From a virus, in the IMG/VR virus record IMGVR_UViG_3300020185_000334, positions 1-20,077 of that record: DNA of 20,077 nt; one strand, given 5' to 3'. Positions 1,664 through 19,904 of this stretch are shown piece after piece. Under the pieces are notes generated by a model, which saw nothing but the letters and a program-made list of their open reading frames with translations, had not been told where the DNA came from and made no database searches. How positions within the stretch are numbered: position 1 is the stretch's first letter; each line of letters opens with the position of its first letter. The position numbers were made by a program, and so were the translations under genes.

Positions 1664-1668
1664 ATTAT

Positions 1669-1675
1669 TATTTAG
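1669..1675 (-). promoter_or_regulatory. Late promoter for the 120-aa gene (N5 spacing)
   Basis: CTAAATA on the minus strand with exactly five bases to the ATG at 1663. The stop codon of the upstream gene (1672-1674) is part of the motif. Confidence 0.65.
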
Positions 1676-2073
1676 TTAAATCTATATTTTGGATCATTAG
1701 CTCCTGCTAAGTAACCTTTAAGTATTTCACTTAACGATGAAACTTCCATTGCTACTCTAGCAATCTTCTTTGTTTCTGAATTTGAAATACTATCAAAAAT
1801 CGTATCAGCTTCTGCGGAATTTAAAGATGTTTGAATACTATCTGTAGTACCGTTAAGGTAATTAGAAAATTCATCCATTCTAGTAATCCACTCACTTAAC
1901 TCATCATACATCTCTTTTTGCTGATTAGCAATTGTTGATGTACCGCCTTCAGGTATATCAGCACCGAGCTCATCACTAGTAATATCTTGTAATTGTGAAT
2001 CTAAAGCCTCTGCATCGGTAAGCTCTTCATCTTGTTCTAAAATTTTATAAAATCTATTTGAATACGTACTCAT
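1672..2073 (-). CDS. Small helical protein with putative capsid-targeting N-terminus (133 aa)
   Basis: The function is unknown. The frame is open for 43 codons upstream, but the ATG at 2071-2073 is chosen because TATAAATA lies exactly five bases before it and the upstream part reads antisense through the divergent gene. The protein begins MSTYSNRFYKILEQDEELT, with I-L-E as a candidate protease site after residue 13. An acidic stretch follows, then long predicted helices (EMYDELSEWITRMDEFSNYL). It is divergent from the plus-strand gene at 2108, with which it shares a perfectly mirrored promoter and start region. An internal head protein is inferred by analogy only. Confidence 0.78.
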   Translation of the reverse strand: MSTYSNRFYKILEQDEELTDAEALDSQLQDITSDELGADIPEGGTSTIANQQKEMYDELSEWITRMDEFSNYLNGTTDSIQTSLNSAEADTIFDSISNSETKKIARVAMEVSSLSEILKGYLAGANDPKYRFN

Positions 2074-2078
2074 GTATA

Positions 2079-2086
2079 TATTTATA
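2079..2086 (-). promoter_or_regulatory. Late promoter for the 133-aa gene (N5 spacing)
   Basis: Exact TATAAATA on the minus strand, then TATAC, then the ATG at 2073. Confidence 0.7.
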
Positions 2087-2094
2087 TCAAACAG

Positions 2095-2102
2095 CATAAA
2101 TA
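2095..2102 (+). promoter_or_regulatory. Late promoter for the 121-aa gene (N5 spacing)
   Basis: CATAAATA, then TATAC, then the ATG at 2108. It mirrors the divergent promoter at 2079-2086. Confidence 0.65.
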
Positions 2103-2107
2103 TATAC

Positions 2108-2473
2108 ATGAAGCGAAGAATATTTGAAGATTCCGAAATACCAAACTCGCAAAGGCAAGTAGCTGGAGTAGGAGCTAATGCAGTTGATCCTGGTGCAACC
2201 ACTGTTCAGCAGCACTTAGTTCATAAGAACGACGATATAGCTCTACAAAATCCTAATAAGATGTACCCAATCGAAGGTATAGATCAAGCTATTTCCGATG
2301 CTTTTATCAATATATCTAACGCAGCTAGGCTTATAGAGACAGCTAAATTAAACCCAGCTCTTAAGAATCATAAAAATAGTTTTCAAAAATTAAAAAATAA
2401 TCTTAAGAGTATAACGAGCTTATTAGTAGATTTTGACGAGACTGTCGCTATAATAAAGAATAATGAAAAGTAG
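2108..2473 (+). CDS. Small protein of unknown function, possible internal head protein (121 aa)
   Basis: The function is not recognised. The ATG at 2108 is preferred over upstream in-frame starts because a late promoter sits exactly five bases before it. The N-terminus MKRRIFEDSEIP contains I-F-E, a possible though very short version of the (I/L)-x-E pattern in the neighbouring minus-strand proteins. Residues of about 13-50 look unstructured and rich in A, V, N and Q. The second half (from about IDQAISDAFINISNAARLIE) is helical. It leads a tight plus-strand string: its stop overlaps the next start by 11 bp (ATGAAAAGTAG). The operon is convergent with the neck gene block. Confidence 0.78.
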   Translation: MKRRIFEDSEIPNSQRQVAGVGANAVDPGATTVQQHLVHKNDDIALQNPNKMYPIEGIDQAISDAFINISNAARLIETAKLNPALKNHKNSFQKLKNNLKSITSLLVDFDETVAIIKNNEK

Positions 2474-3249: not shown

Positions 3250-3270
3250 GAACCCTGATATAATTAGAGT

Positions 3271-4503: not shown

Positions 4504-4811
4504 TTTTGTAACATAAAGGTGTTAGTTTGCGGATTAAAGAAGAGACGAATACCGGTTTTACCTAAAGTACAGTCCTTATCCTTATGAGGTATAATATTAA
4601 AAGTATCTCTTATATACTCTAGATCAGCTGGCGTGCATGCGCAAGTACCTTTATTAGTTTTTAAATTTTCAATTTTTTGATTCTTAGATGCATCAGTCTT
4701 AACATAATCAGGTACAAGATTTAAGTGTTTACGTCTATATGATGATTGAGTATCTGTAAACCCATGACCTCTATGTCTATGGTTGGTATGAAACTTTGCA
4801 AAACTATCCAT
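4500..4811 (-). CDS. Hypothetical basic protein upstream of the neck gene (103 aa)
   Basis: The function is unknown. The N-terminus MDSFAKFHTNHRHRGHGFTD is rich in histidine and arginine. The middle is lysine-rich. C-A-C with a later D-C (about 58-60 and 81) could coordinate a metal, but the pattern is not a standard finger. The C-terminus (GIRLFFNPQTNTFMLQK) is a likely beta hairpin. ATTAAATA lies on the minus strand at 4817-4824 with exactly five bases to the ATG. The stop overlaps the start of the gp14-like gene as ATGA, which suggests a head-completion or neck-assembly partner. Confidence 0.75.
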   Translation of the reverse strand: MDSFAKFHTNHRHRGHGFTDTQSSYRRKHLNLVPDYVKTDASKNQKIENLKTNKGTCACTPADLEYIRDTFNIIPHKDKDCTLGKTGIRLFFNPQTNTFMLQK

Positions 4812-4816
4812 AATTA

Positions 4817-4824
4817 TATTTAAT
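4817..4824 (-). promoter_or_regulatory. Late promoter for the 103-aa and neck genes (N5 spacing)
   Basis: ATTAAATA on the minus strand, then TAATT, then the ATG at 4811. It lies directly downstream of the terminator at 4826-4862. Confidence 0.65.
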
Positions 4825-4825
4825 C

Positions 4826-4862
4826 AAAAAAAAGCTGCAACCAATAAAGTTGCAGCTTTTTT
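4826..4862. terminator. Bidirectional intrinsic terminator
   Basis: An 8-bp stem (GCTGCAAC, 4834-4841, paired with 4849-4856) encloses a 7-base loop. Eight A's precede it and six T's follow, so it has a U-tract on either strand. In context it ends the minus-strand 277-aa transcript. Confidence 0.9.
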
Positions 4863-4880
4863 AAATTTCTCTTTTAAATC

Positions 4881-5372
4881 TTAAGCAAACAAGTCGCCGG
4901 TCTTGCCAGTTTTTGAACTATGAACTTTGTTTTTCTTTGATGTTAGCTTATGACCAGCTGCATCTGCAAGCGGCTTGCCCTTACCATCTACAGTTGATTT
5001 AACTTGGCCTTGAGCTTTACCACCGGAAGCTCTAACACTGCCAACTGTATTTTTACGGCTCATTAATGATTGACCAGCTGAATCAGGTACTTCCTTTAAG
5101 TCAGTTGCTTCATCGACTGTATCTTCAAAATCTTCGAAGCCGTCTTCAACTTCATCATCACCTTCGTCATCGAGTTCTTCTTCACCTCCGAGTTGCGCTT
5201 GAATCAGATCGCACAATTGTTGTGCCATATCACGGTCAAGTGTCAAAGTAACCTCATCAGTCTCTTCAACGTCGTTAACTTCGTCATCAGTGTCAATACC
5301 GAGAGCATCAAGCTCTTCCACGTCTTGGTCACCCATAACATCTTCAAATAATTTATCAAAAACAGATTTCAT
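4881..5372 (-). CDS. Nested in-frame gene: 163-aa short form of the 277-aa protein
   Basis: Met115 of the longer protein is preceded on the minus strand by CATAAATA (5378-5385) and exactly five bases (TTAAT). This is the same promoter-start module found before the other late genes. The predicted product begins MKSVFDKLFEDVMGDQ, again a short helix with an L-F-E protease-like site, as expected for an independent capsid-targeted protein. It would contain the acidic core and the basic repeated C-terminus but not the lysine-rich N-terminal 114 residues. The long form may have arisen by in-frame fusion of a second small gene upstream. Both products from one frame is inference; the module itself is seen. 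Confidence 0.5.
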   Translation of the reverse strand: MKSVFDKLFEDVMGDQDVEELDALGIDTDDEVNDVEETDEVTLTLDRDMAQQLCDLIQAQLGGEEELDDEGDDEVEDGFEDFEDTVDEATDLKEVPDSAGQSLMSRKNTVGSVRASGGKAQGQVKSTVDGKGKPLADAAGHKLTSKKNKVHSSKTGKTGDLFA

Positions 5373-5714
5373 ATTAATATTTATGTTATCTTTATATGTT
5401 TTTTCAACTTTTTCATCAAACTTTTCTGAACTATATTTACCGGGAGTGTAAAGATTAGCTTTCTTTTTCTTTTTTGCCATGGTCTTTGGATCAATCGGCT
5501 CTTCATAACCATCGACTTCTGTAATATCTGAAGTCTTCTTATTTTGAATATCAGTAGCAGCCTTACTATTTGTACTTACCGAGCCTTTACCAGGCTTTGT
5601 ACCAAAGCTTTTTATACCACCTCTCATACATGGTGAAGCTTCCTTTGTTGACTCTTTTATAATATTGTTTGAGTATACATTCCATATATCGGTTAGATTA
5701 TTCTTTTTTGACAT
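4881..5714 (-). CDS. Acidic head-associated protein with putative capsid-targeting N-terminus (277 aa)
   Basis: This is probably a prohead core or internal head protein; the exact family is not certain. The N-terminus MSKKNNLTDIWNVYSNNIIKE ends in I-K-E before S22, a candidate gp21-type cleavage site. Residues of about 23-110 are basic and low in complexity (PKTMAKKKKKANLYTPGKY). A second start-like segment, MKSVFDKLFEDVMGDQ, begins at residue 115. After it comes an acidic middle (about 130-205, almost all D and E around L-T-L-D-R-D-M-A-Q-Q-L) and a basic C-terminus with two related segments (DSAGQSLMSRKNTVG and DAAGHKLTSKKNKV). It has its own N5 late promoter and a terminator downstream. It may encode two products. 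Confidence 0.75.
   Translation of the reverse strand: MSKKNNLTDIWNVYSNNIIKESTKEASPCMRGGIKSFGTKPGKGSVSTNSKAATDIQNKKTSDITEVDGYEEPIDPKTMAKKKKKANLYTPGKYSSEKFDEKVEKTYKDNININMKSVFDKLFEDVMGDQDVEELDALGIDTDDEVNDVEETDEVTLTLDRDMAQQLCDLIQAQLGGEEELDDEGDDEVEDGFEDFEDTVDEATDLKEVPDSAGQSLMSRKNTVGSVRASGGKAQGQVKSTVDGKGKPLADAAGHKLTSKKNKVHSSKTGKTGDLFA
5378..5385 (-). promoter_or_regulatory. Internal late promoter within the 277-aa gene (N5 spacing)
   Basis: CATAAATA on the minus strand, then TTAAT, then an in-frame ATG at 5372-5370. Confidence 0.55.
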
Positions 5715-5721
5715 CTAAATA
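5715..5721 (+). promoter_or_regulatory. Possible late promoter for the terminase gene
   Basis: CTAAATA, 11 bases before the ATG at 5733. It overlaps the divergent minus-strand promoter in a near-palindrome. Confidence 0.45.
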
Positions 5722-5728
5722 TTTAATA
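5720..5728 (-). promoter_or_regulatory. Late promoter for the 277-aa gene (N5 spacing)
   Basis: TATTAAATA on the minus strand, then TTTAG, then the ATG at 5714. Confidence 0.6.
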
Positions 5729-5732
5729 CATA

Positions 5733-7424
5733 ATGACAAAAAATAAACAAAATTATATGAATAACCCAAATCTACCAGCGGTAGGTGCGGAATTTGAATA
5801 TACATCAGCGCAAATAAAGCACCTTCAAAAAGCTGCGAAGAACTTATTATATTTTGCTGAAAACTTTTTTTATATTATATCCTTAGATGATGGTAAACAA
5901 AAAATTAAATTACATTTACCTCAAAAGCGCGCTTTACGTAAAATGCGCGATAATAGATTCTTTATATTATTAGCATCGCGACAAATTGGTAAGACTACAA
6001 TGATGACAATCTATGCTTTATGGATTGCTTGCTTTAATGATGATCAAAAGATTCTTATCGTAGCTAATAAAGAGGGGACTGCTATTGAAATAATGCAACG
6101 TATACGAATGGCTTATGAAGAGTTACCCAATTGGTTAAAGCCTGGGGTAAAGGAATACGGTAAGACATCGGTAACGCTAGCCAATGGTACAAGAATCGGT
6201 ATATCAACTACAACGGGTACAGCAGCTCGTGGTCAATCTGTCAACTGCCTTATATTAGACGAGCTAGCTTTTATTGAGCCACATTTAGTAGAAGAGTTTT
6301 GGAAATCGGTATACCCTATTGTTTCAGCTTCTAAGAAGTCTAAAATTTTTATAGCTTCAACTGCAAATGGTACCGGTAACTTATTTCATAAGATATATTC
6401 TGGAGCTGATTCCGGGGAGACGAACTGGGCATGTGATAAAATCTTATGGAACGAGATACCTGGTAGAGATGAGCGATGGAAGAATGATACTATAGCGTCA
6501 ATTGGAAGCGCCGAAGCTTGGTCGCAAGAATTTGAATGTAATTTTATAGACTCAGGAGAAAGCTCATTAAATGAAGAGCTATTTATAAGGTTAATGCAAA
6601 AGACGCAAGAGCCTAAATTTATATTTGATGAAGGTAAGTATTTGCTGTGGGATGAACCAAACGCAGAGGGAGTTTATATAGTTAGTGTTGATACAGCTGA
6701 AGGAGTGGGGGCTGACTATTCCGTAGTGCAGATATTTGACTATAGAGACCTTACATCTATTAAACAAGTAGCTACATATTGCGATAATACGATATCACCT
6801 TATAATTTTACCGAAAAGGTGTATGAGATACTACAACACTGGGGCAACCCGCTAGTATGTATAGAAAGAAATAACTGCGGGGCACAAGTAGTTGATAATT
6901 TAAGTAAGCATCACGGTTATGAAAATATTGTATCGTGGGGTGCGTCTACTGCAGGTCGATCTAAGGGTCAATTAGGAGTGGTGGCTCATACTAATACAAA
7001 GCATAAAGGTATAACGAACATGAGATATTGGGTAAATGAGCTAGAAAGCGTAGATATACGAGATGTTAATCTTGTAAAGGAGCTAAGAGACTTTGTTAGA
7101 TATCCGAACGGTACATGGGCAGCTAAGAGAGGTGCTGGCAATCATGACGATAGAGTGATGTCGATGATATGGAATTTAATTATATTAGAAGATGAGGTAG
7201 TTAAGAGGCATTTTGAGGTCGTTCGGTTGGATAAGAATAATAAGCCATTACAAATTAAGCAATTCGACTTTGGGATTAAATATTTTATGAACCCTACATC
7301 AATTTATAGTAATGAGAGAGAGGATAGCTTTGATAATACACCACCGGTGCTTATTGGAAATGCGATGAATCAATCTTCAGATATAGACCAGCTAACGGAA
7401 ATGGGATTTTCACCTTTACAATAA
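5733..7424 (+). CDS. gp17: Terminase large subunit, T4 gp17-like (563 aa)
   Basis: This is the ATP-driven motor and nuclease that packages DNA into the prohead and cuts the concatemer. The N-terminal ATPase has a Walker A variant S82-R-Q-I-G-K-T-T89, Walker B L173-I-L-D-E177 with the catalytic glutamate, and a coupling motif S209-T-A-N-G213. The C-terminal RNase H-like nuclease has D320 (VSVDTAEG) with D328, E378 (VCIERNN) and D472/D473 (GNHDD), so all metal-binding acids are present. The length is close to T4 gp17 (610 aa). Both halves look intact, so the enzyme should be functional. The next gene begins five bases after the stop. The small subunit is not adjacent; a candidate lies at 19432-19890 on the other strand. 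Confidence 0.96.
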   Translation: MTKNKQNYMNNPNLPAVGAEFEYTSAQIKHLQKAAKNLLYFAENFFYIISLDDGKQKIKLHLPQKRALRKMRDNRFFILLASRQIGKTTMMTIYALWIACFNDDQKILIVANKEGTAIEIMQRIRMAYEELPNWLKPGVKEYGKTSVTLANGTRIGISTTTGTAARGQSVNCLILDELAFIEPHLVEEFWKSVYPIVSASKKSKIFIASTANGTGNLFHKIYSGADSGETNWACDKILWNEIPGRDERWKNDTIASIGSAEAWSQEFECNFIDSGESSLNEELFIRLMQKTQEPKFIFDEGKYLLWDEPNAEGVYIVSVDTAEGVGADYSVVQIFDYRDLTSIKQVATYCDNTISPYNFTEKVYEILQHWGNPLVCIERNNCGAQVVDNLSKHHGYENIVSWGASTAGRSKGQLGVVAHTNTKHKGITNMRYWVNELESVDIRDVNLVKELRDFVRYPNGTWAAKRGAGNHDDRVMSMIWNLIILEDEVVKRHFEVVRLDKNNKPLQIKQFDFGIKYFMNPTSIYSNEREDSFDNTPPVLIGNAMNQSSDIDQLTEMGFSPLQ

Positions 7425-7429
7425 TTATT

Positions 7430-8041: not shown

Positions 8042-8058
8042 TTTTTTATCCGAAATAT

Positions 8059-8066
8059 CTTAAATA
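8059..8066 (+). promoter_or_regulatory. Late promoter for the sheath gene (N5 spacing)
   Basis: CTTAAATA, then ATATT, then the ATG at 8072. No Shine-Dalgarno. Confidence 0.65.
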
Positions 8067-8071
8067 ATATT

Positions 8072-10459
8072 ATGGGACGTACAATTCAATCACCAGGTGT
8101 AGAAATTAATGAAATAGATTTAAGCTTAAGACCTAATTTAGCTACAGGTACAACTGTATTAGCTACTGGGTTCGCTGACAAAGGGCCAGCAGACGAAGTT
8201 ATTCAAGTAACGAGCTTGAGTGAATTCGAGCAAATTTACGGAGTACCTACAACTCCAGCGGAAAGATATTTCTATCATACGGTAAGACCGTTATTTAATT
8301 CACAAGCTAACATATTAACATATCGCCTACCGTATGGTTCGGATCAAGGTACCGGCTTTGGAAATAACTACGGAGCATTAGCATATCCTGTAGCGCCTGT
8401 CGCTCTTTCTGCTATTGACTCATCATTATCTGGTATAGCACTTAGTACCTTTGAACAACCTCTTTCAAGTAATGGTGACGCCATTCCGGTTATATATGTT
8501 GTTGGTAAGCCAGTACACTACGAACTTACAGAGACAGAGTATAATAACATTCTCAAAGGCGAGACCTTTTCATGGTCTTCTACGCCAGCTGTGTCATCTG
8601 CTCAGCTAAGTGCAATATCTTCACTACAAAACGCTGGTATTATTGTTCTTAATAAGGGCCAGACAACTGTTAATAATAAATTTGAAGGGTTCTACTTCGG
8701 TATGATAGATAACTCTAACATTAATGATGTTACAGATTATGACGGTATTAAAACTGCAGAAACAATTACTAGTAATACTACTGTATTAACTAGCGACTAT
8801 ATTAGGTTGCCAGAGCCTAGGCTTTCATTTGCTCTATCTGCAGAAAATAACGCGCTTACTAATACTTTCGGTCAAGAGTCAGATAGTATTTCCGAAATAA
8901 TGGAAAATCTCGTACCATACGACCTATCACCGGCTGTTTTCAACGATACTATTTCAATAGGAGTGTTTAGATTAAGACAATCTGTATTTGCATCTGATGT
9001 AATTAAGCTTAATTACAGCTTAGCAGAAAGTTATGTAGGTTCTCTTGATTATCATCGCCAGCAGCAATCACAAACTGGTGGATCTGCTCAGAGCTTCTTT
9101 ATAGGTACAAAAGAAGATCAATCTCCTAATATTACGATAATGGTAAACGATTACCTTTCTCGTAAGAACGGCGTCACTTGGAGAGATATTGACGGTAATC
9201 CAGTTAATCAGGTTAGACTAGCAAGAGGGCTCGATTCGTCGTCATGGTCGAATCTATCTTCTTCATATATACCAGAACCTTATCGCGATATTACCATTCA
9301 TCGCAGCGTTTCAGCTGCAGTTATTCAAGCTGAAACTCATCTAGGAGATGCTAATAGCTTATTTACAATCGGTTCGTATTCATCTTCAAACTTAAAGGGT
9401 AAAGAAAAAGAGCTAGGCTCGATTCCTAAAAAGATTGATAGGTTACTCGATACTGTTGAAAATCCGGATATTTTTGATATTGACATTACTGTTGAAGGCG
9501 GTCTAGGTACTATTAACGGAGCTCGCGAGGAAAATGGGGATGAAAAATATTTCGATGATACGTCGTTTATTGAAATGTCGTCATACTATACTTCAGATCC
9601 AACAACTATTAGTAATACTACATATAGAGATAACTGGAAGACGATCTACAACAGGTTTAATGACTTCGCGGAAAAGAGAAGAAAGGATCACCTGTTTATT
9701 GCCGATCTGCCAAGACCGATATTTGTACAAGGTGCTAACTTTAAAACATTAATGGATCCGGAGAAGAACTTCTCGTTAAATATAACAGGAGCTATTAAAT
9801 CGTTTACATCTATCTTAAATTCAAGCTACTCTACTACTTATGCATGCTGGACTAAGGTATATGACGCTGTTCTTGACGATCAGACCTGGGTACCTTTCTC
9901 TGGTACTGCTGCTGAGATAATGGCAAATACAGATGCTAACTTCCAGCCATGGTTTGCACCAGCTGGCTTTACTAGAGGTAGAGTTGGTAGTGTTAATGAT
10001 ATTGTTTTATATCCAAAGCAGAAGCAAAGAGATCAGCTATATAAGAACTCCGTTAATCCTGTAGCATTCTTCCCTGGTGATGGCTTCGTAGTATTCGGGC
10101 AAAAGACATTACAATCAGCTCCAACTGCATTCGATAGAATTAATGTACGTCGCTTGTTCTTGAACTTAGAGAAGTCTACACGCGAGACTGTTAAGTACTT
10201 CGTCTTTGAACCGAATACTCTTCTTACTAGAACTCGTATTATTAATACTCTTACGCCTATATTCGAGCGCGCCAAAAATACAGAAGGTGTTTATGATTAC
10301 TTGATCGTCTGCGACGAAAGAAATAACACTCCAGATGTTATCGATCAAAACGAGCTTGTAGTAGACATATACTTAAAACCAGTACGTGCTGCAGAATTCA
10401 TTCTTGTCAACTTTTATGCGACAAGAACCGGGACAGACTTCAACGAAATCGTTGGATAA
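8072..10459 (+). CDS. gp18: Contractile tail sheath, T4 gp18-like (795 aa)
   Basis: The sheath polymerises around the tube and contracts to drive it through the host envelope. The N-terminus (GRTIQSPGVEINEIDLS, then TGTTVLATGFADKGPADEVI) matches the S-P-G-V/I-E-x-x-E opening and the G-P-A-x-x-x-x-x-V-T region of gp18. The C-terminal domain has GVYDYLIVCDERNNTPDVID, then N-E-L-V-V-D-I-Y-L-K-P, F-I-L-V-N-F and A-T-R-T-G. This is the most conserved part of the family and carries the inter-subunit strands. At 795 residues it is longer than T4 gp18 (659), the extra length being in the variable middle (surface domains). It has its own N5 promoter and a strong terminator 20 bases after the stop, so it can be a single-gene, high-level transcript. 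Confidence 0.95.
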   Translation: MGRTIQSPGVEINEIDLSLRPNLATGTTVLATGFADKGPADEVIQVTSLSEFEQIYGVPTTPAERYFYHTVRPLFNSQANILTYRLPYGSDQGTGFGNNYGALAYPVAPVALSAIDSSLSGIALSTFEQPLSSNGDAIPVIYVVGKPVHYELTETEYNNILKGETFSWSSTPAVSSAQLSAISSLQNAGIIVLNKGQTTVNNKFEGFYFGMIDNSNINDVTDYDGIKTAETITSNTTVLTSDYIRLPEPRLSFALSAENNALTNTFGQESDSISEIMENLVPYDLSPAVFNDTISIGVFRLRQSVFASDVIKLNYSLAESYVGSLDYHRQQQSQTGGSAQSFFIGTKEDQSPNITIMVNDYLSRKNGVTWRDIDGNPVNQVRLARGLDSSSWSNLSSSYIPEPYRDITIHRSVSAAVIQAETHLGDANSLFTIGSYSSSNLKGKEKELGSIPKKIDRLLDTVENPDIFDIDITVEGGLGTINGAREENGDEKYFDDTSFIEMSSYYTSDPTTISNTTYRDNWKTIYNRFNDFAEKRRKDHLFIADLPRPIFVQGANFKTLMDPEKNFSLNITGAIKSFTSILNSSYSTTYACWTKVYDAVLDDQTWVPFSGTAAEIMANTDANFQPWFAPAGFTRGRVGSVNDIVLYPKQKQRDQLYKNSVNPVAFFPGDGFVVFGQKTLQSAPTAFDRINVRRLFLNLEKSTRETVKYFVFEPNTLLTRTRIINTLTPIFERAKNTEGVYDYLIVCDERNNTPDVIDQNELVVDIYLKPVRAAEFILVNFYATRTGTDFNEIVG

Positions 10460-10535: not shown

Positions 10536-10542
10536 TTAAATA
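10536..10542 (+). promoter_or_regulatory. Late promoter for the tube gene (N5 spacing)
   Basis: TTAAATA, then ATTAC, then the ATG at 10548. Confidence 0.62.
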
Positions 10543-10547
10543 ATTAC

Positions 10548-11093: not shown

Positions 11094-11112
11094 ATTTTAA
11101 TTAATTTTACTT

Positions 11113-11144
11113 AAAAGCCGTATCGTTTGATACGGCTTTTTTTT
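11113..11144 (+). terminator. Intrinsic terminator after the tube gene
   Basis: A perfect 12-bp stem (11113-11124 with 11129-11140) encloses the four-base loop GTTT. It ends in eight T's (11137-11144). Confidence 0.93.
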
Positions 11145-11146
11145 GC

Positions 11147-11153
11147 TTAAATA
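11147..11153 (+). promoter_or_regulatory. Late promoter for the 274-aa gene
   Basis: TTAAATA with six bases to the ATG at 11160, starting three bases after the terminator T-tract. Confidence 0.58.
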
Positions 11154-11159
11154 TTATAT

Positions 11160-11984
11160 ATGGGTATATTAAACGCAGCTAATGACGCTATACAGGGAGT
11201 ATCAAATCTTACTAAAGGTGCTTTAGGTGGTACTCTTGCGCAACCAAATGTAAGTCTATTCGGTACAAATATACCAGGCGTACCTTTAGTAAGCTTTAGA
11301 AACTACTTTATTCAGTCTATGTCGACGTGGATTGGCGCTATACCTTTAAGGACACAATGGGTAGTTTTATTTGATAGTTTCCCGATTGGTTTAAATTCTG
11401 ATATAATAAGAGGCCTAGAGCCTGTTCAAGGCGATAAAAAGGGGTTTGATATAGATAAGGCAAAAGCCTTTGTAACTTCATACCCAGCTCAAGGAATAGT
11501 AGGGTGTATTTTCGCGCAAGGAGCTAATATACCAGATGACACATCACCAACTTCTGTAGCCAGTATTCCAAATAATCGTGGATTTATACCAGGGGTAATT
11601 TCTGGCAAGCGCGAGTCGTTTGGACCGCTTACTCTACAATTTAGAGAGACTAATACGTCCTTTATTGATAGCGTTATTAGACCATGGGTTATATTAGGGA
11701 GTCATGCAGGTATGGTAGCTAGGGATGAAAATAATAAACCGGAGCTGAGCCCTAAATCTAATATCACTATAGTTCAGTATACTAGATCATATCAAAATAT
11801 ATCGCAAATTCCGAGAAAGGTGTGGCAGTTTTATAACTGTGTACCAACTGGCGTCGGTACTAGAAACTTAACATATGATTCAGAGAGTATGGAGCAATAC
11901 ACTACAAACTGGAGCTATTCTCACTATAACGTTAGCGATAACTTATATTTGCCTTTACCGGACTTGATAGATAAATTATTTTAA
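11160..11984 (+). CDS. Tail-tube-fold structural protein, possibly gp54/gp48-like (274 aa)
   Basis: This is probably a tube-fold baseplate component such as the gp54 tube initiator; the exact orthologue is uncertain. The N-terminus is rich in G, A and N (about 1-40). A core follows with LRTQWVVLFDSFP (about 62-74), A-Q-G-A-N-I-P (about 119-125), ISGKRESFGPLTLQFRETNT (about 148-167) and a closing set of strands with VWQFYNCVPTGVGTRNLTYD. The F-x-x-C-x-P-x-x-V/I-x-x-x-x-x-Y-D-S-E pattern near the C-terminus is typical of tube-like proteins. Its stop overlaps the next start (TAATG), so it is coupled to the first of the two gp26/gp51-like genes. T4 gp54 is somewhat longer (320 aa). Confidence 0.7.
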   Translation: MGILNAANDAIQGVSNLTKGALGGTLAQPNVSLFGTNIPGVPLVSFRNYFIQSMSTWIGAIPLRTQWVVLFDSFPIGLNSDIIRGLEPVQGDKKGFDIDKAKAFVTSYPAQGIVGCIFAQGANIPDDTSPTSVASIPNNRGFIPGVISGKRESFGPLTLQFRETNTSFIDSVIRPWVILGSHAGMVARDENNKPELSPKSNITIVQYTRSYQNISQIPRKVWQFYNCVPTGVGTRNLTYDSESMEQYTTNWSYSHYNVSDNLYLPLPDLIDKLF

Positions 11985-12742: not shown

Positions 12743-12762
12743 TTGTTATTATAAAAACTTAA

Positions 12763-12770
12763 TATAAATA
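12763..12770 (+). promoter_or_regulatory. Late promoter for the 246-aa gene (N5 spacing)
   Basis: Exact TATAAATA, then TCTTT, then the ATG at 12776. Confidence 0.72.
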
Positions 12771-12775
12771 TCTTT

Positions 12776-13516
12776 ATGTCTGATAATAAATTTAATGATA
12801 TCTTAAATGAAATTAAAGTTAATAGAACCGCTTTAAGTGTATATATCCCGTCAAAGCAAGCAGAAGTAGAGTTATTACCTCTTACACTAGCTCAGCAAAA
12901 ATTAATTATTGAAACTACATCAGATACAACTCTCGGTGTTTTGTTTTTTAATAATATATTTTATAAAATATTAAAGGAAAATATTAAAGGTGATATTAAA
13001 GAGTTAACGACAATAGATAGAGTTAATCTAACGCTAGCGTTAAGGCAGCATTTAGAGGATATTGTAGAGTTTGAGGATATTAAGATATCTATAACAGAGA
13101 TTCTTGAGAAAAATAAATCTATTATTAATAATATAGAGTCAGCCACTATAACTTCAGGTGATTTTACCTTTGAGATTCAAGCCCCGAATCTAGATATTGA
13201 TAATTTTATTAATACTCACTTACTAAACAAATATAAGAACGTTTCATTCGATGATCATAAATTAAAGAATCTTATAAGTGACTTATATGTATACGAGATT
13301 TTAAAATTCATCAAAACTATTAAGATAAACGATACAGAAATATCATTACATAGCGAATTAGTTAAAAGCGCCAGTGTTATAGAGAGTATAGACACAAAAC
13401 ACTTTAAATCAATTACCGATTACATTAATGATGTTCGCGATGCAGAGGCGAAATATACTAAATGCATTAAGAGTGAAAAATCTATAGATATTACTCCTGA
13501 CTTGTTTATACTCTGA
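12776..13516 (+). CDS. Baseplate hub or tail-chaperone-like protein, second copy (246 aa)
   Basis: This is a distant paralogue of the preceding protein and is tentatively assigned to the same gp26/gp51-type group. The region from about 24 to 110 has YIPSKQAEVELLPLTLAQQK, then F-F-N-N-I-F-Y-K-I-L, then T-I-D-R-V-N-L-T-L-A-L-R-Q-H-L. This lines up with F-N-N-V-L and I-D-K-F-K-C-L-L-A-I-R in its neighbour. P-S-x-x-x-x-V-x-L-x-P-L-T resembles the opening of T4-like baseplate hub proteins. The remainder is helical and charged. It sits directly before the tape-measure candidate, where tail chaperones usually lie. It has its own N5 promoter and no Shine-Dalgarno. The two genes are in separate ORFs, not joined by an evident frameshift signal. 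Confidence 0.62.
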   Translation: MSDNKFNDILNEIKVNRTALSVYIPSKQAEVELLPLTLAQQKLIIETTSDTTLGVLFFNNIFYKILKENIKGDIKELTTIDRVNLTLALRQHLEDIVEFEDIKISITEILEKNKSIINNIESATITSGDFTFEIQAPNLDIDNFINTHLLNKYKNVSFDDHKLKNLISDLYVYEILKFIKTIKINDTEISLHSELVKSASVIESIDTKHFKSITDYINDVRDAEAKYTKCIKSEKSIDITPDLFIL

Positions 13517-13524
13517 GTTAGCTA

Positions 13525-13531
13525 TTAAATA
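13525..13531 (+). promoter_or_regulatory. Late promoter for the tape-measure gene (N5 spacing)
   Basis: TTAAATA, then ATAGT, then the ATG at 13537. The stretch TAAATAATAGTATG is also found at the gp53 gene. Confidence 0.68.
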
Positions 13532-13536
13532 ATAGT

Positions 13537-15375
13537 ATGGCTGACACTACTATAGGTGATGCATTACTATTATTATCAAAAGTATCCTCATCAACAGATA
13601 AAAGACTATCTTTACTTGAGAAGGTAATAGGTAAGTCCGCGGTACCCGCGTCGAATCTGAAAGATTCAAATAAAAAACCGCGGTCAGTTGTTGAAAAACC
13701 AAAATCGGTGATAGTTACTGATTTTGGTAAAAAGGCAGAGAGTGATCTAAAGGTACTTCAAGATAAAGATGGCGGAGAAGGTAAGGAGGAAAAGCCAGGT
13801 AAGGACGGTGGAGGTATGAGTTTTATTAAAAAGCTTATAGGCCCTGCATTATTAGTATTAGGTGGTTTAGCAGCTCTCGTAACAGGCTTAATGTCTGACG
13901 GTCCGTTAAAGGGGCTTTTGAATATATTATCAAAAGGTGGTATTATCGGAGGAATTAAACTATTTAAAAGTATGGCGGTTAAGCAAGTAGGTAAGTTTAC
14001 CACTCTATTTGCTAAAATATTACCTAAAAACATGTTTGGTAGTTTAATTAAAAGCGCAAAAGGGTTCCTAGGTAGTATAACTAAGTTTTTATTGAAGCCA
14101 TTTGCTAAATTAGGCGGCAAAGCAGCCGGTAAGGGTATATTTGGCACCATTGGTAAGCTTTTCGGTAAATTTATAAAGCCAATCTTAGGTAAACTACCCG
14201 GGATTGGTACCCTAATATCATTCGGGTTTGCGTTTAGTAGATTCAAAAAGGGCGATCTTATAGGCGGGTTAATTGATGTAGCGTCTGGTATCGCGGCGAT
14301 GGTACCTGGTGTAGGAACTGGTATATCAATTGGTTTAGATGTTCTTAACGCATTTTTAGATGTTAAAAAAGGCGGTAAGGATGAGAAGGTTGAACCGAAA
14401 GGTTCTGGATTTAAGCTTAGCGACTTTTTCGGTAAGATAAAAGATAAGATAATGAATAATTTCCCAGTTAAAAATTTAGTACAATTCTGGGACGGCGCTA
14501 AAATGGTATTTAGCGGTGATATTAAAGGAGGTTTAACAGAAATGGCTTACGCTATACCGTTTATGAAACCTTTAGCTAATTTCTTATTCAGCGAAAAAGA
14601 GGAAGTTAATGAAGAAACAGGAGAGGTTACAAGTACTACAATGTTTGCAAAGATAAAGGAAGTAGTAATGAATAACTACCCTATTAAAAATTTAATGCAA
14701 ATGTGGAGTGGTATTAAGAAAGTAACTAGCGGTAATTATAAAGAAGGTTTTACTGAAATGGCTTATGCTATACCGTTTATGAAACCTTTAGCTAATTTCT
14801 TATTCGGTGAACGTGAAGAAGTTAATGAAGAAACAGGAGAGGTTACAAAAAAGGAAAGTTTATTTTCTGGTATTAAGACTGCAGTCATGAGTAAGTTGAA
14901 GACTTTCTGGAAAAAAGCTCCTAGATGGTTAAAGTGGGGCGCTAAAAAGGTATTACCCGATAATATTATTAGTGTGTTAGAATCTGAAGGCGAGGCTGCA
15001 CCAGAAGACCCTACTGAAGCTGAAGCTGGAGCTGCAATGTCAGCCGAAGCAGCAAGCGGGGGTTCAAAAACCGGGTCATCAAATGTCAGTAATTCGACTG
15101 AGGGTTCAAAAACAGCGGCATCGATTGGCGACAAGCAGAGATCAAATTTACTTGCTATGACGAGGCAATCTAACACCGTGCTTCAAAATTTAGATAAATC
15201 TAATAGAGCTCTTCTAGAGATGCAAGTCGAGTTATTAAATGAAAATATAGCTATACTGAGAGAAATAGCGCAAAAGACAGGTGGCAGTGCTAATATTGTC
15301 ACAAATAACACCACATCAGTAACTAACATGAACAATCAGCGAAGTTTGAGAGATGTTCAAGAGATGTATACTTAA
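13537..15375 (+). CDS. gp29: Tape-measure-like protein, T4 gp29 type (612 aa)
   Basis: This probably sets tail length and lies inside the tube, like T4 gp29 (590 aa). Residues 1-90 are helical then charged. Residues of about 96-119 and 240-280 are glycine-rich and hydrophobic, as in tape measures that later insert in the membrane. Residues 298-369 and 370-441 form two tandem 72-residue repeats containing EMAYAIPFMKPLANFLF and EEVNEETGEV; a third partial unit (from about 442) has lost the centre. An A/E/S-rich linker (about 490-530) precedes a helical C-terminal segment and an asparagine-rich tail. The position after the chaperone-like genes and before baseplate genes fits. The call is from composition and order; no catalytic motif is present. 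Confidence 0.68.
   Translation: MADTTIGDALLLLSKVSSSTDKRLSLLEKVIGKSAVPASNLKDSNKKPRSVVEKPKSVIVTDFGKKAESDLKVLQDKDGGEGKEEKPGKDGGGMSFIKKLIGPALLVLGGLAALVTGLMSDGPLKGLLNILSKGGIIGGIKLFKSMAVKQVGKFTTLFAKILPKNMFGSLIKSAKGFLGSITKFLLKPFAKLGGKAAGKGIFGTIGKLFGKFIKPILGKLPGIGTLISFGFAFSRFKKGDLIGGLIDVASGIAAMVPGVGTGISIGLDVLNAFLDVKKGGKDEKVEPKGSGFKLSDFFGKIKDKIMNNFPVKNLVQFWDGAKMVFSGDIKGGLTEMAYAIPFMKPLANFLFSEKEEVNEETGEVTSTTMFAKIKEVVMNNYPIKNLMQMWSGIKKVTSGNYKEGFTEMAYAIPFMKPLANFLFGEREEVNEETGEVTKKESLFSGIKTAVMSKLKTFWKKAPRWLKWGAKKVLPDNIISVLESEGEAAPEDPTEAEAGAAMSAEAASGGSKTGSSNVSNSTEGSKTAASIGDKQRSNLLAMTRQSNTVLQNLDKSNRALLEMQVELLNENIAILREIAQKTGGSANIVTNNTTSVTNMNNQRSLRDVQEMYT
14428..14859 (+). repeat. Two tandem 216-bp coding repeats in the tape-measure gene
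   Basis: Unit 1 is 14428-14643 and unit 2 is 14644-14859, in register at 72 codons. The core encoding MAYAIPFMKPLANFLF and the segment encoding EEVNEETGEV are nearly identical in DNA. A shortened third unit follows. Confidence 0.88.
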
Positions 15376-15381
15376 TAAATA
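15374..15381 (+). promoter_or_regulatory. Late promoter for the 387-aa gene
   Basis: AATAAATA with seven bases (ATAGTAT) to the ATG at 15389. It overlaps the TAA stop of the tape-measure gene. Confidence 0.55.
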
Positions 15382-15388
15382 ATAGTAT

Positions 15389-16552
15389 ATGAGTAATCTT
15401 TGGAATTTACAGTTTGGTGGTACCACTTCTCTACCTATACTAACAAGAGGTGATAGTAGATTAACTGATTCGACTACTGATATGAAGGATCTTACGAATT
15501 TTGGAGTATACGGGGATCAATCCGCTCAAATAAAGGATCCTATTAATATAGTAACGGATTTTCCATGGACAAATAGCCCTAAAGGTTCTCGTGACGATGT
15601 ACCTAAGTTACAGATGATAGAGCAAAGAATAGTTTTAAACTCAACTGTTTCAAACATGATATATTCAACTTTAGCTACTGCTGATAATATATCATCCCTC
15701 AGTAACACAGCTGCTGGAGTAGGTACTAGAATAGGAGGATTTTTTAGTGACGACGAAGCAACCTCTACAGATAGCGGAGACTCTCAAGATAGTAGTATTG
15801 CCAATGAAGAGGAGGCGTCAAATAGATCAGCATTAAAGGACGCATTTAACCGAGCATTGCAAGGTGGCTTCTTTAAAACATTTAATAGTGATGTACTAAA
15901 GCCGTACGACGCATTATATGCAACTGAATATACTGGGTTTAATTATTATTTCCCCTACTTAGAGGACTCCTACAGAGAGATTACCAACCAATTCGGCGCC
16001 GGCGAATCGAACGCTCTGACACCTATAGCTGAGCTCGCGAGCTCAGCAGCAAACTTTTCAAATATATTAAATGTAGTAAAGCCGGGTACTTATATTGAAA
16101 AATCTAAACAATATACAATGGGCGATAAAGGTCGATCGTTAACGTTTACTGTACCTTTACTTAATACCGGTACGTTTGATGATGTTAGACGTAACTGGCA
16201 GCTTATTTTTGGGATTGTATACCAAAATCGACCTGGTAGAGTTAGTAAGAGTATTATAGATCAGCCAGTTATTTATGAAATACATCTACCAGGAGTTGCG
16301 TATATGCCATATGCTTTTATATCAAATATGTCGGTTAAATTCCTGGGTAATAGACGCGAGATGGAGTTAGATGTGCCTATTATGAATGAAGGAGTGCAGG
16401 GTGGGTTAGCTAATAATATTGGTAAAATACGTACAGTTATACCAGATGCATATGAATTATCTATAACTGTTGAAGGCCTTAACGAAGAAACTAGAAACTT
16501 TCTATATGCTAGTGTTAAAAAAGATAAATTGACAGTTAATAAGCCTATATAG
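15389..16552 (+). CDS. Baseplate tube-cap-like structural protein (gp48/gp54 type, 387 aa)
   Basis: This is probably a baseplate or tube-cap protein; T4 gp48 (364 aa) is the likeliest counterpart by length and by position after the tape measure. The N-terminal 60 residues are polar. A D/S/E-rich linker (about 118-150) leads to YFPYLEDSYREITNQFG (about 192-208), then P-G-T-Y-I-E-K-S-K-Q-Y (about 232-242). The C-terminal beta-rich domain has LTFTVPLLNTG, then P-V-I-Y-E-I-H-L-P-G, AFISNMSVKFLGNRREME and V-I-P-D-A-Y-E-L-S-I-T-V-E-G-L. The last stretch is typical of tube-fold proteins, in which the loading surface ends in such a strand pair. Assignment to gp48 rather than gp54 is inference. Confidence 0.68.
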   Translation: MSNLWNLQFGGTTSLPILTRGDSRLTDSTTDMKDLTNFGVYGDQSAQIKDPINIVTDFPWTNSPKGSRDDVPKLQMIEQRIVLNSTVSNMIYSTLATADNISSLSNTAAGVGTRIGGFFSDDEATSTDSGDSQDSSIANEEEASNRSALKDAFNRALQGGFFKTFNSDVLKPYDALYATEYTGFNYYFPYLEDSYREITNQFGAGESNALTPIAELASSAANFSNILNVVKPGTYIEKSKQYTMGDKGRSLTFTVPLLNTGTFDDVRRNWQLIFGIVYQNRPGRVSKSIIDQPVIYEIHLPGVAYMPYAFISNMSVKFLGNRREMELDVPIMNEGVQGGLANNIGKIRTVIPDAYELSITVEGLNEETRNFLYASVKKDKLTVNKPI

Positions 16553-16569
16553 TCATAACGTAAAAATAG

Positions 16570-16577
16570 TATAAATA
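16570..16577 (+). promoter_or_regulatory. Late promoter for the gp53-gp27 operon (N5 spacing)
   Basis: Exact TATAAATA, then ATAGT, then the ATG at 16583. Confidence 0.72.
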
Positions 16578-16582
16578 ATAGT

Positions 16583-16945
16583 ATGGAAGGTAAATATCAA
16601 AATGATATAAGAATACTACCTGAGCTTGAGCTCTATAGGTATGAAAATATCTTTAAACTATATCAACGTGGGGAGAATAATTATTTCTTTTATAATATTT
16701 TAAAGAAACTTAAACTACCAGAAGATATAAATGAAGATGTTTTCGATTATATTAAATACACAACTGCCTTGCCTCTAACTACATTAAGTTATAGAATATA
16801 CGGTACTACTTATTTATGGTGGTTGATATTAATTGTTAATAATATTAAAAACCCGATTGCTATTGAATCCGGTACTAGGATTAAGTATATTAAAAAAGCA
16901 TTTCTCAAGATAGTACTACAAAGTATTACAGATCAATTGCAATGA
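16583..16945 (+). CDS. gp53: Baseplate wedge protein, T4 gp53-like (120 aa)
   Basis: gp53 clamps neighbouring baseplate wedges together around the hub. The diagnostic segment is YRIYGTTYLWWLILIVNNIKNP (about residues 72-93), followed by I-E-S-G-T-x-I-K-Y-I. This is the LysM-like fold with the Y-G-x-x-x-L-W-W-x-I-x-x-x-N motif of the family. At 120 residues it is shorter than T4 gp53 (196 aa), the missing part being around the C-terminus. A plausible start is fixed by an exact TATAAATA five bases from the ATG. Its stop overlaps the start of the next gene (ATGA), so the hub-like protein is translationally coupled to it. Confidence 0.82.
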   Translation: MEGKYQNDIRILPELELYRYENIFKLYQRGENNYFFYNILKKLKLPEDINEDVFDYIKYTTALPLTTLSYRIYGTTYLWWLILIVNNIKNPIAIESGTRIKYIKKAFLKIVLQSITDQLQ

Positions 16946-18510
16946 GGTATAATGAAGAAACAGTGTATGAAGAGAGATTTACATATATTATCGACAATGA
17001 AAAATATATTTTTAAAGCTACTCTTTTTAATCCTGATGGTGATTTATTGACACTTACAAAAAGTTCAGTCTTAGAATTAAATATCTTTGATAGTATTTTT
17101 GAGCCATGGCTTAAGGGTTCTATTATATTAGATAATACTGAAGATGCTTTGGAAAGATTCGTAACCCCGCCTGGAGATACTGAATTTAACTCAAATACAC
17201 CGAAAGCAAAGGGATACACAGTAAGAGGCGACGGTCGTGATGTATTAAAAATCGAAATTATACCATTAGATGGCAATAAATCTGATTATAATAGTAGCGA
17301 TGAGAGTTATAATAAAATATTTGCACTTAAATATATATTCTGCTTGGAAGATGAGCAGGCTATGGAATATAATGAAAAATCTGCAAAAAAATATAGTATT
17401 ATAGATTATGATTTAGAAATCATGAAAGAGAGAAAGATTTTCTTTACAAGCTCTGACGTTTTATCAGAAAATACAGGGCAAGTAACACAGCTCAGTAATA
17501 AAGACCGCGAAGCATATACAGGCGAGTGTATGAAGTATATTATAAAGAAGGCTCTTAACGATAAAGTTGCTATTCTTACTACTCAGGACGTCGATACTGG
17601 TAATGAAAGTACACCGTTTTTTGAAAGCGGTATATCTAAGATATTCTACTCATCACCTGCTGTAAATAATACTCTTGAAGATTTAACATATATATTAAAG
17701 CGGCATGTAAGTAGTGGTACTAAAAATGATTTTAGTTTTTTAAAAAAAGAAAACTATACTGGTGAGTATATATTAGAGGGGGCATTTGATATCTTTAAAA
17801 AGGCGTATAATCCGAATACAGGTCAGACTGGCGCGCGATTTTTAGAGAATTTTACGATAACCGGGGCTAGTCGCGAATCTAGTAGTATTATTGAGAATGA
17901 GCAAAAAAAGCCAGATAATGCTTTAGAGTTCGGTGAAAAAAGCGAGATATTGGATTATAAATTCTTTAATACCTCATCACGAATTCGTAGAGATGCGATT
18001 AAATCATATATCACCCATTCATACGATTTTAACAAAAAGGAGTTTAATATTGATATGGTTGACGGTAATATTGAAAATGTTAAAGACGTGTTTGCGAGTA
18101 ATTATGTATCAGTAATGAAAGGTAAAGATAAGAACCCGACTCCAAATCTTATTATAAACGGCATGCAACGTAATAATTTATCATATGAAAATGTATTTTC
18201 TGAATATGGTGACAACTCAATTATTAGAAAAAGCTACGGAGTGAATAAGTTACTAAAAAATGCGCTAGTAACAAATATGGGAGTTGAGATTACAGTTAAA
18301 GGTCAATTACAGCGTAAATCTGGTAGATTCTTTAGTATCGATAGAGCCGGTGATTATATTGATAATCACTTCGATAATAAATTATTAGGTATCTATTTTA
18401 TTCTCGACGTACAGCATTTATTTATCGACGATACGAAATATCTTAACAAGCTTATTGCGATAAAAACATATCATTTTGATAATCCAAATTATAAGGAGGA
18501 TTTATTATGA
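16942..18510 (+). CDS. gp27: Baseplate hub protein, gp27-like (522 aa)
   Basis: This is probably the hub that joins tube and central spike. The N-terminal part has LELNIFDSIFEPWLKGSIIL (about 44-63), then D-N-T-E-D-A-L-E-R-F, the opening strand set seen in gp27-type proteins of many T4-like phages. I-F-A-L-K-Y-I-F-C-L-E-D-E (about 126-138) and a middle helical region follow. The C-terminal domain ends VTVKGQLQRKSGRFFSIDRA-type strands and LLGIYFILDVQHLF, then T-K-Y-L-N-K-L-I-A-I-K-T-Y. This is the common hub ending, in which a G-x-Y/W-x-I/V-x-x-V-x-H pattern closes a barrel. T4 gp27 is shorter (391 aa). Its start overlaps the gp53 stop. The C-terminus encodes an unusually good Shine-Dalgarno for the next gene. 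Confidence 0.68.
   Translation: MRYNEETVYEERFTYIIDNEKYIFKATLFNPDGDLLTLTKSSVLELNIFDSIFEPWLKGSIILDNTEDALERFVTPPGDTEFNSNTPKAKGYTVRGDGRDVLKIEIIPLDGNKSDYNSSDESYNKIFALKYIFCLEDEQAMEYNEKSAKKYSIIDYDLEIMKERKIFFTSSDVLSENTGQVTQLSNKDREAYTGECMKYIIKKALNDKVAILTTQDVDTGNESTPFFESGISKIFYSSPAVNNTLEDLTYILKRHVSSGTKNDFSFLKKENYTGEYILEGAFDIFKKAYNPNTGQTGARFLENFTITGASRESSSIIENEQKKPDNALEFGEKSEILDYKFFNTSSRIRRDAIKSYITHSYDFNKKEFNIDMVDGNIENVKDVFASNYVSVMKGKDKNPTPNLIINGMQRNNLSYENVFSEYGDNSIIRKSYGVNKLLKNALVTNMGVEITVKGQLQRKSGRFFSIDRAGDYIDNHFDNKLLGIYFILDVQHLFIDDTKYLNKLIAIKTYHFDNPNYKEDLL
18493..18499 (+). promoter_or_regulatory. Strong Shine-Dalgarno for the 307-aa gene
   Basis: AAGGAGG, seven bases before the ATG at 18507. It is the best ribosome binding site in the window and lies inside the upstream coding sequence, where a leaderless start is not possible. 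Confidence 0.85.
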
Positions 18511-19430
18511 GTAATAAAGTTACATTACTACCAGATTATATAGATATTACTCAGCTACCTAGTGTCGAGTTCTATAATAATGCTACAAACTTAATGTCCG
18601 CGTTTAGTACATATACAGGTGAACTTAGTGTTTGTATTGATTTTGAGAAAAGTAAAGTTAGTAGTAATGTTATAGCCAGCACTTCGAGCTTATATAAGAA
18701 GCTAAATGAAAATAGCTTTAATATACAAGCTGGTGATACAGCATACCAGTTTGATGATATTTTTAAGCTATTCTATATAGAAAAGTTTCAAAGTCTGACA
18801 GACAATATAAAAACATTATTAACTAGCTCCTTTTCTGGTAGTAATATTTTCTTTAACAATTATAGTGATGATACAGGAAATATTACCAATATAACAAGTA
18901 TCATTGATAATAATACATCTCCTTATTTCGATAGAGATGATGCTCTATTTAACTCTCCAAATAGTGTAGCAGCGTCATTGTATAATAAAATATCTGTTAA
19001 TGAATTAACTACCAGTATTAATATGAATATCTTAACTGATGCTGTCTTAAAGACAAATATAAAAGGTCTTCAGAGCAACGTTACAGTAAATACAGCTAAA
19101 ACTGCTCATGGTGAAAATTTAGTTACTGACAATTTATATGTCGATAGAGTGTTTAAATACGCCGATACTATTAATAGTCAGTTAAAAAATATAATAGGGG
19201 ATATGGCCGACTTTATTAAATTCTTTAAAGGGGTTAACTATCGTGATCAGGATGAGAGTAGACAGGCTTTATTTTTAAAATATAAGCTTAATGTAGAGGG
19301 TATAGAAGTTGAAATTGATATTCTTAAAAATAAGCTCGATAAATCGATTCCAAATACTCTAGTATCTCAGAGCGAAGAGGATGTAACACCTACTCGAGTA
19401 GAAACCGCAGTCGATACAGTTATTTTATAG
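18507..19430 (+). CDS. Structural protein of unknown function, probably baseplate or tail (307 aa)
   Basis: The protein is not recognised. It starts inside the stop of the hub-like gene (ATGA) with a strong Shine-Dalgarno, so it is part of the gp53-hub operon and is probably made in proportion to them. It is polar and rich in S, T and N, with no membrane segments or catalytic motifs. Segments such as YNNATNLMSAFSTYTGELSV and a helical C-terminal part (LFLKYKLNVEGIEVEIDILK) are visible. The final residues are acidic and T/V-rich. Possible roles are a baseplate wedge component or fibre-attachment protein. It converges on the small terminase candidate with one base between the stops and no terminator. 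Confidence 0.72.
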   Translation: MSNKVTLLPDYIDITQLPSVEFYNNATNLMSAFSTYTGELSVCIDFEKSKVSSNVIASTSSLYKKLNENSFNIQAGDTAYQFDDIFKLFYIEKFQSLTDNIKTLLTSSFSGSNIFFNNYSDDTGNITNITSIIDNNTSPYFDRDDALFNSPNSVAASLYNKISVNELTTSINMNILTDAVLKTNIKGLQSNVTVNTAKTAHGENLVTDNLYVDRVFKYADTINSQLKNIIGDMADFIKFFKGVNYRDQDESRQALFLKYKLNVEGIEVEIDILKNKLDKSIPNTLVSQSEEDVTPTRVETAVDTVIL

Positions 19431-19431
19431 A

Positions 19432-19890
19432 TTAACTATCTGTAACATCTGCGTCAATTATTTGAGCGTCGCCGATTAACTGTTTCATTAATTCTTCTCG
19501 GTTTAATAGTAATTTAGTTTCAGTATCTTGCTGTTGTAAAGCTTTTTTACTTTCAATATCCATTACCTTAAGCTCTTTTGTCGACTTAGCCTTTTGATCG
19601 GAAATATGAATCTTATTAAGTGTTTCAATTGCAGCTGCAGCAGCTCCTACTAGTTTACTTAAACTCTCAACATCTTTAGCATCAGGAGCAGATGTAATAA
19701 ATTGCTTTACATCTTCAACGTAATCCACACTACCTTTAATTAACTTACCAGAGTACTGTAAGAGGAAATTTTCTAAATCTTCTTTTTCGAGTTTAAAGTC
19801 ATCTTGTTTTTCTATATCTCTACCTACCTGGTTAGATGATTGTAGTTGTGAGAGTAAATCGTCAATTGAATCAGTCATATCGTCATCCAT
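19432..19890 (-). CDS. gp16: Terminase small subunit candidate, T4 gp16-like (152 aa)
   Basis: This is tentatively the small subunit that recognises DNA and regulates the packaging motor. The length is close to T4 gp16 (164 aa). The architecture fits: an acidic, flexible N-terminus (about 1-30), a helical core DFKLEKEDLENFLLQYSGKL with A-P-D-A-K-D-V-E-S-L-S-K-L-V-G (about 31-85), a second long helix with A-A-A-A-I-E-T-L-N-K-I-H, and a charged C-terminus. gp16 proteins have the same order of D-F, a helix, a P-x-A-x-x-x-E turn, and a central coiled pair. AATAAATA on the minus strand (19897-19904) lies six bases before the ATG; an ATG four codons downstream is an alternative. It is opposite in strand and about 12 kb from the large subunit. 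Confidence 0.58.
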   Translation of the reverse strand: MDDDMTDSIDDLLSQLQSSNQVGRDIEKQDDFKLEKEDLENFLLQYSGKLIKGSVDYVEDVKQFITSAPDAKDVESLSKLVGAAAAAIETLNKIHISDQKAKSTKELKVMDIESKKALQQQDTETKLLLNREELMKQLIGDAQIIDADVTDS

Positions 19891-19896
19891 ATAGAC

Positions 19897-19904
19897 TATT
19901 TATT
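19897..19904 (-). promoter_or_regulatory. Late promoter for the small terminase candidate
   Basis: AATAAATA on the minus strand with six bases (GTCTAT) to the ATG at 19890. Confidence 0.58.

Follow-up and report, generated by a model that had tools for sequence, protein, structure and literature searches.

Late-promoter boxes stand at a fixed distance from start codons

The window analyzed here is the whole of IMG/VR record IMGVR_UViG_3300020185_000334, a viral sequence of 20,077 bases with an A+T content of 66%. Its gene products include a T4-type large terminase, a tail sheath, tail-tube-like proteins, a head-closure protein, and a baseplate-like protein, and the best explanation is that it is a piece of a T4-related myovirus. 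The terminase shares less than 60% identity with that of every named phage compared (e.g., 38% with Sinorhizobium phage phiM9). Throughout the window, the core of the T4 late promoter, TAAATA, lies directly ahead of start codons on both strands, an arrangement suggesting that late mRNAs in this lineage are leaderless, i.e., begin at or almost at their AUG.

Hereafter, N is the number of bases between TAAATA and ATG. The first-pass annotation, made from the sequence of the window, listed eleven modules with N=5 and four near variants with N of 6 to 8, and all of them are present (Table 1); one more N=5 match, the twelfth, is at ATG 16602, a short way into the gene that starts at 16583. Against these 12 matches, 300 dinucleotide shuffles gave a mean of 1.01 N=5 modules (maximum 5), in line with the annotation's estimate of about one by chance, and every other spacing from 0 to 40 had at most 4 matches. 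When all hexamers at all offsets before open reading frame (ORF) starts were scanned without preselection, TAAATA at N=5 again came out on top in the window, with 10 observed against 0.3 expected. Only 3 of the 11 modules (2073, 12776, and 16583) have the complete T4 box, TATAAATA, and one start, 5372, is not intergenic but an in-frame start within gene 4881-5714.

The spacing is a trait of the lineage

We compared the window with 80 related IMG/VR loci (terminase identity 66–100%) and ran genome-wide tests on long relatives of the lineage (contigs of 106–225 kb, 30–41% GC), reading relatives of up to 225 kb in full. Near relatives are non-independent samples, and gene starts were assigned by simple rules. 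The genome-wide count proposed in the first-pass annotation gave a sharp peak at five bases, with 47, 29, 38, and 39 starts in G001 (185 kb), G002, G011 (41% GC), and G012, respectively. Specifically, boxes before ORFs of at least 60 codons in G001 had N=5 in 47 cases, N=6 in 19, N=7 in 8, and rarely any other spacing. Pooled over 83 loci, near-duplicates included, there were 473 matches at N=5, with no other spacing above 107 and most near 40. Reversed-pattern controls gave 4 matches versus 54 in G001 and 5 versus 42 in G011, and the start codons at N=5 in G001 were ATG (54), GTG (3), and TTG (4). The hexamer scan likewise placed TAAATA at N=5 first in G001, G002, G011, G012, and G015, whereas in T4 it placed first AGGAGA at N=5, a Shine-Dalgarno (SD) sequence. 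The box consensus in the lineage is WWTAAATA. For T4 and Syn9, box spacing shows only a broad maximum around 20–30 bases before ATG.

A repeated element was seen in G012 (L288-L298), where TTCTTCTCT stands immediately before ~22 candidate ATGs and related words occur further upstream.

Predicted transcription starts coincide with start codons

Numbering of the late box in T4 runs from −13 to −6 (PMC2988020), and +1 is therefore the sixth base after TAAATA. The geometry assumed in the first-pass annotation is thus correct: with five further bases, the A of ATG becomes +1. At that sixth base, Syn9 and T4, in which the ATG is far off, have a purine in 90% and 77% of sites, respectively. In the relatives of the window, the base is a purine at 82% of N=7 and 86% of N=9 sites, and the base just before it is a pyrimidine at 88% of N=5 and 80% of N=7 sites. 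Since the purine/pyrimidine signature is kept at N=7 (and the purine at N=9), the start signature tracks the box and not only the ATG.

Space upstream of the modules is limited in two ways. In ~38 distinct sequences, the U-tract of an intrinsic terminator stops 12–16 nt short of the ATG and the box lies in the interval, an arrangement for which a control scan within ORFs found no example; a recognizable terminator precedes 71 of 665 modules, and both terminators of this kind in the window show it (Table 1). In addition, four divergent gene pairs in G001 and G002 span only 28–29 bp including both ATGs, and the 22–23 bp between the ATGs are essentially two back-to-back boxes. The corresponding distance between ATGs 2073 and 2108 in the window is 34 bp. 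On this geometry, an SD-bearing leader would fit only if the transcript began within the opposite gene or passed through the terminator. These limits, the purine tendency, and a nested start conserved at N=5 in 64/64 relatives (below) together strongly suggest that most 5′ ends would fall on these ATGs or no more than about two bases away.

The first-pass annotation described the arrangement for late promoters, but it is not limited to them: promoters of the sigma70 type, TTGA-N18-20-TATAAT, cluster at N=6 (counted from TATAAT) in G001 (n = 11), G002 (n = 6), and G011 (n = 6), and precede genes such as gp55 itself. The sigma70 −10 box occupies −12 to −7; with TATAAT at N=6, transcription would therefore again begin at the A of ATG. 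A translation signal hardly accounts for two different boxes that, each at its own spacing, predict the same 5′ end. In several of these promoters in G001 (L090-L099) and G011 (L268-L279), GGAAC occurs 4–5 bases before TATAAT (e.g., ttgactgaaacGGGAACtgcacTATAAT) and is perhaps a middle-promoter element. The Bacteroidota-type promoter TAnnTTTG was considered and rejected, as it showed no enrichment (8 versus 8.8 in shuffled sequence).

Shine-Dalgarno motifs are not enriched

SD-like motifs do not clearly exceed the shuffled level in any gene class of G001, G002, G011, or G012 (e.g., 20% versus 17% for operon-internal genes in G001), and only 0–1% of box genes in the relatives have one. This lack of SD, together with the strong preference for ATG at N=5, is as expected for leaderless expression of the kind reported for phage phiYS40. 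The same procedure found SD motifs well above shuffle in T4 (~70% versus 29%) and HTVC008M (~66% versus 34%). A few SD-like words (e.g., AAGGAG) are mildly over-represented at most 60 bases upstream. The first-pass annotation contrasted leaderless genes with operon genes bearing clear SD sites; those sites, before 3515/3518 and 18507, do exist, but 2 of 10 internal genes versus 1.4 expected by shuffling is no enrichment, and the contrast fails across the family. As no gene class has a clear SD excess, the sites at 3518 and 18507 are probably incidental. Ribosomal protein S21 and initiation factor IF3, sought as phage-encoded aids for leaderless initiation, were not found in the relatives searched.

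Late transcription machinery in relatives

The first-pass annotation suggested a search for the late sigma factor gp55 and coactivator gp33. Homologues of gp55 are encoded by G001 and G002 (phrog_234, E-values of 7e-29 and 3e-29), while gp33, a short and fast-diverging protein, had no phmmer match in the relatives. Pfam family PF02916 (gp45 clamp) also gave no match in the relatives. A 245-aa protein (L095:11693-12427 in G001; homologues in L219-L262), itself without phrog or PF02916 match, has a predicted PCNA-type clamp fold (pLDDT 86; best PDB match, E-value of 4e-14) and is predicted from this model to be a sliding clamp missed by PF02916.

The gp55 proteins of the window's relatives form a group apart from Kyanoviridae gp55 (split support 99/98), in a tree with long branches and many weakly supported forks, and by this grouping they fall outside Kyanoviridae. 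A terminase search for the host among genome contigs found no relative, and a gp55 search found four distant contigs in metagenome-assembled genomes with four unrelated labels, which is uninformative on the host.

A nested start and a shared palindrome

The in-frame box and ATG at 5372 are kept at N=5 in all 64 relatives compared, down to 37% protein identity, and the nested start is predicted from this arrangement to yield a second product of 163 aa. In each of 26 distinct sequences, the codons ATA-AAT spell the nested box, although ATA makes up only 48% of Ile codons in G001; the relatives are not independent, and no P value is claimed for this observation. Gene 4881-5714 and the terminase gene diverge from one palindrome, TAAATATTTA (5716-5725), which provides a box at N=5 for the former and usually at N=11 for the latter. 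The leader of the terminase mRNA would then be 6 nt, as judged from box position, and the two starts are likely to be mutually exclusive.

Table 1. Predicted late-promoter modules and intrinsic terminators of the window
Feature	Coordinates	Strand	Support
Late box TAAATA (1281-1276), N=8, ATG 1267	1267..1281	−	Orthologues N=5 or 8
Late box TAAATA, N=5, ATG 1663	1663..1674	−	Sequence
Late box, full TATAAATA, N=5, ATG 2073; divergent from 2108	2073..2084	−	Orthologues N=5 in 32/33
Late box TAAATA, N=5, ATG 2108; back-to-back with 2073 promoter	2097..2108	+	Orthologues N=5 in 15/18
Late box TAAATA, N=5, ATG 4811	4811..4822	−	Sequence and orthologues
Intrinsic terminator, hairpin and eight T; U-tract ends 14 nt before ATG 4811	4826..4856	−	Conserved in relatives
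Nested in-frame late box, N=5, ATG 5372 of gene 4881-5714	5372..5383	−	Relatives N=5 in 64/64
Late box TAAATA, N=5, ATG 5714; minus half of palindrome TAAATATTTA	5714..5725	−	Relatives N=5 in 69/69
Late box TAAATA, N=11, ATG 5733 (large terminase, gp17); plus half of palindrome TAAATATTTA	5716..5733	+	Relatives N=11 in 60/76, N=8 in 13/76
Late box TAAATA, N=5, ATG 8072 (tail sheath)	8061..8072	+	Relatives N=5 in 34/71, N=7 in 37/71
Late box TAAATA, N=5, ATG 10548 (tail tube family)	10537..10548	+	Orthologues mostly N=5 or N=9
Intrinsic terminator, hairpin and eight T; U-tract ends 15 nt before ATG 11160	11115..11144	+	Conserved in relatives
Late box TAAATA, N=6, ATG 11160	11148..11160	+	Sequence and orthologues
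Late box, full TATAAATA, N=5, ATG 12776	12765..12776	+	Sequence and orthologues
Late box TAAATA, N=5, ATG 13537	13526..13537	+	Sequence and orthologues
Late box TAAATA, N=7, ATG 15389	15376..15389	+	Sequence and orthologues
Late box, full TATAAATA, N=5, ATG 16583 (baseplate wedge family)	16572..16583	+	Sequence and orthologues
Late box TAAATA, N=6, ATG 19890	19890..19902	−	Sequence and orthologues

Other features of the window and its relatives

Three small proteins encoded on the (−) strand of the window (218-493, 506-832, and 857-1267) begin with an MNTxxDLIFEAY-like sequence and continue into acidic tails. Their IFE|AY stretch is similar to a cleavage motif of the T4 gp21 head protease, and they are possibly a family of small head proteins. 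On the (+) strand, three separate genes (7430-8041, 10548-11093, and 11160-11984) match the tail-tube family phrog_45. The relative G011 (L269-L271) carries 24 tRNA genes and a transfer-messenger RNA gene with the predicted tag GAEQCMLLNQTLG.

Discussion

We propose that the late genes of this lineage are transcribed by the RNA polymerase of the presumed host carrying a gp55-type late sigma, which would recognize WWTAAATA at −13 to −6 as in T4. Most boxes would be set so that +1 coincides with the A of ATG or precedes it by one or two bases (by six for the terminase gene), and the resulting mRNAs, beginning with AUG or nearly so, would be translated by 5′-terminal-AUG (leaderless) initiation rather than SD pairing; operon-internal genes presumably depend on translational coupling. 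Taken as a whole, we regard this reading, that gp55-type promoters abutting the ATG produce leaderless late mRNAs, as very probable. Several observations weigh against it: the box positions −13/−12 are A/T-rich but looser than those of T4; some orthologues have N=9–11, i.e., leaders of a few bases; the purine at the sixth base is weaker at N=8 sites (45%); gp33 went unmatched; and gp55 and the clamp candidate were found in relatives, not within the 20-kb record.

A different view of the same box is that TAAATA, at −11 to −6 relative to the ATG, is a translation signal, for example a Kozak-like or A/U-rich site contacted by the ribosome in a non-SD host, and that the mRNA starts further upstream. 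A fixed distance between box and ATG would also suit a ribosome contact, and some start signal other than SD is needed, given that SD shows no clear excess in the relatives' gene classes. However, such mRNAs would have to accommodate terminator U-tracts ending 12–16 nt before the ATG and divergent pairs whose 22–23 bp leave no space for a leader, and a TATAAT box with upstream TTGA reaches the same predicted +1 by another spacing. These three lines led us to reject the translation signal as an explanation. It is also at odds with the box lying 20–30 bases upstream in T4 and Syn9 and with the purine six bases past the box, which is also common at sites whose ATG lies two or four bases farther away; overall, we consider it very improbable. 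The notion that the peak merely reflects A+T-rich sequence deserves next to no credence: the window is indeed 66% A+T, but the shuffles never exceeded 5 modules, the reversed-pattern controls fell far below the observed counts even at 41% GC, N=5 is conserved in 64/64 and 69/69 relatives at two starts, and no composition-matched control showed the same peak.

It is also conceivable, although we think it rather unlikely, that the boxes are promoters but that many genes are in addition translated from read-through mRNAs, leaderless mRNA accounting for only part of expression. Many genes are co-directional and closely packed, a recognizable terminator stands before only 71 of the 665 modules, and T4 late genes are themselves partly expressed by read-through. 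On the other hand, read-through is no option for divergent pairs or for genes abutting a terminator, and there is no SD excess to serve such mRNAs.

The predicted system resembles T4 late transcription, in which an 8-bp TATA box lies one helical turn upstream of the start, in its conserved core box, predicted box position, gp55 homologue, predicted clamp-fold protein, and structural genes as targets. It differs in that T4 boxes lie ~20–30 bases before the ATG, usually with an SD (26/30), whereas the box of the lineage adjoins the ATG without one. Its −13/−12 positions are also looser, and gp33 had no phmmer match. Middle and late mRNAs of the Thermus phage phiYS40 have been reported as leaderless (PMC3594737). 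phiYS40 is a lytic phage with a Thermus host and reported 5′ ends, whereas this lineage is T4-like, with a gp55-type late sigma and predicted 5′ ends. The promoters of phiYS40 are reportedly host-sigma-like. Cellular leaderless genes of Deinococcus-Thermus and Actinobacteria have a −10 box at a fixed distance to the start and no SD (PMC12340547, PMC3160421), and in both respects they resemble the TATAAT-N6 class; they differ in using cellular sigma factors and genes, whereas the modules of the lineage mostly have a phage late box. The Pelagibacter phage HTVC008M (Kyanoviridae) also has TAAATA at N=5 before some genes (12 starts), but its other genes use SD and its gp55 belongs to another group. 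The G015 type likewise combines genes that have an N=5 box with genes that have an SD, and together with HTVC008M looks like an intermediate state. Phage AR9 was rejected as a leaderless precedent because its 5′ untranslated regions are 26–491 nt long. We found no earlier report of leaderless mRNA in T4-like phages in the literature searched, which covered few subscription papers. Leaderless middle/late phage mRNA is already known from phiYS40; what appears new is a T4-type late promoter serving as a leaderless start module.

We lean, by a small margin, toward a broader combined picture in which a whole T4-like lineage does without SD initiation, sigma70-type and late-sigma promoters both start mRNAs on AUG, some divergent genes are served by palindromic or back-to-back promoters, only one of which can probably be open at a time, and a conserved nested leaderless promoter makes a second product. 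The signature TAAATA-N5-ATG/TATAAT-N6-ATG may be used for better gene-start calling in these phages. If the predictions are true, the infected cell must translate 5′-terminal AUGs efficiently, which raises the question of whether the host natively translates leaderless mRNA or is reprogrammed by the phage. T4 serves as the model both of late transcription in phages and of late-mRNA translation led by SD sites, and a T4 late sigma and box operating without leaders would show that a promoter can replace a ribosome-binding site, with the transcription start alone setting the translation start.

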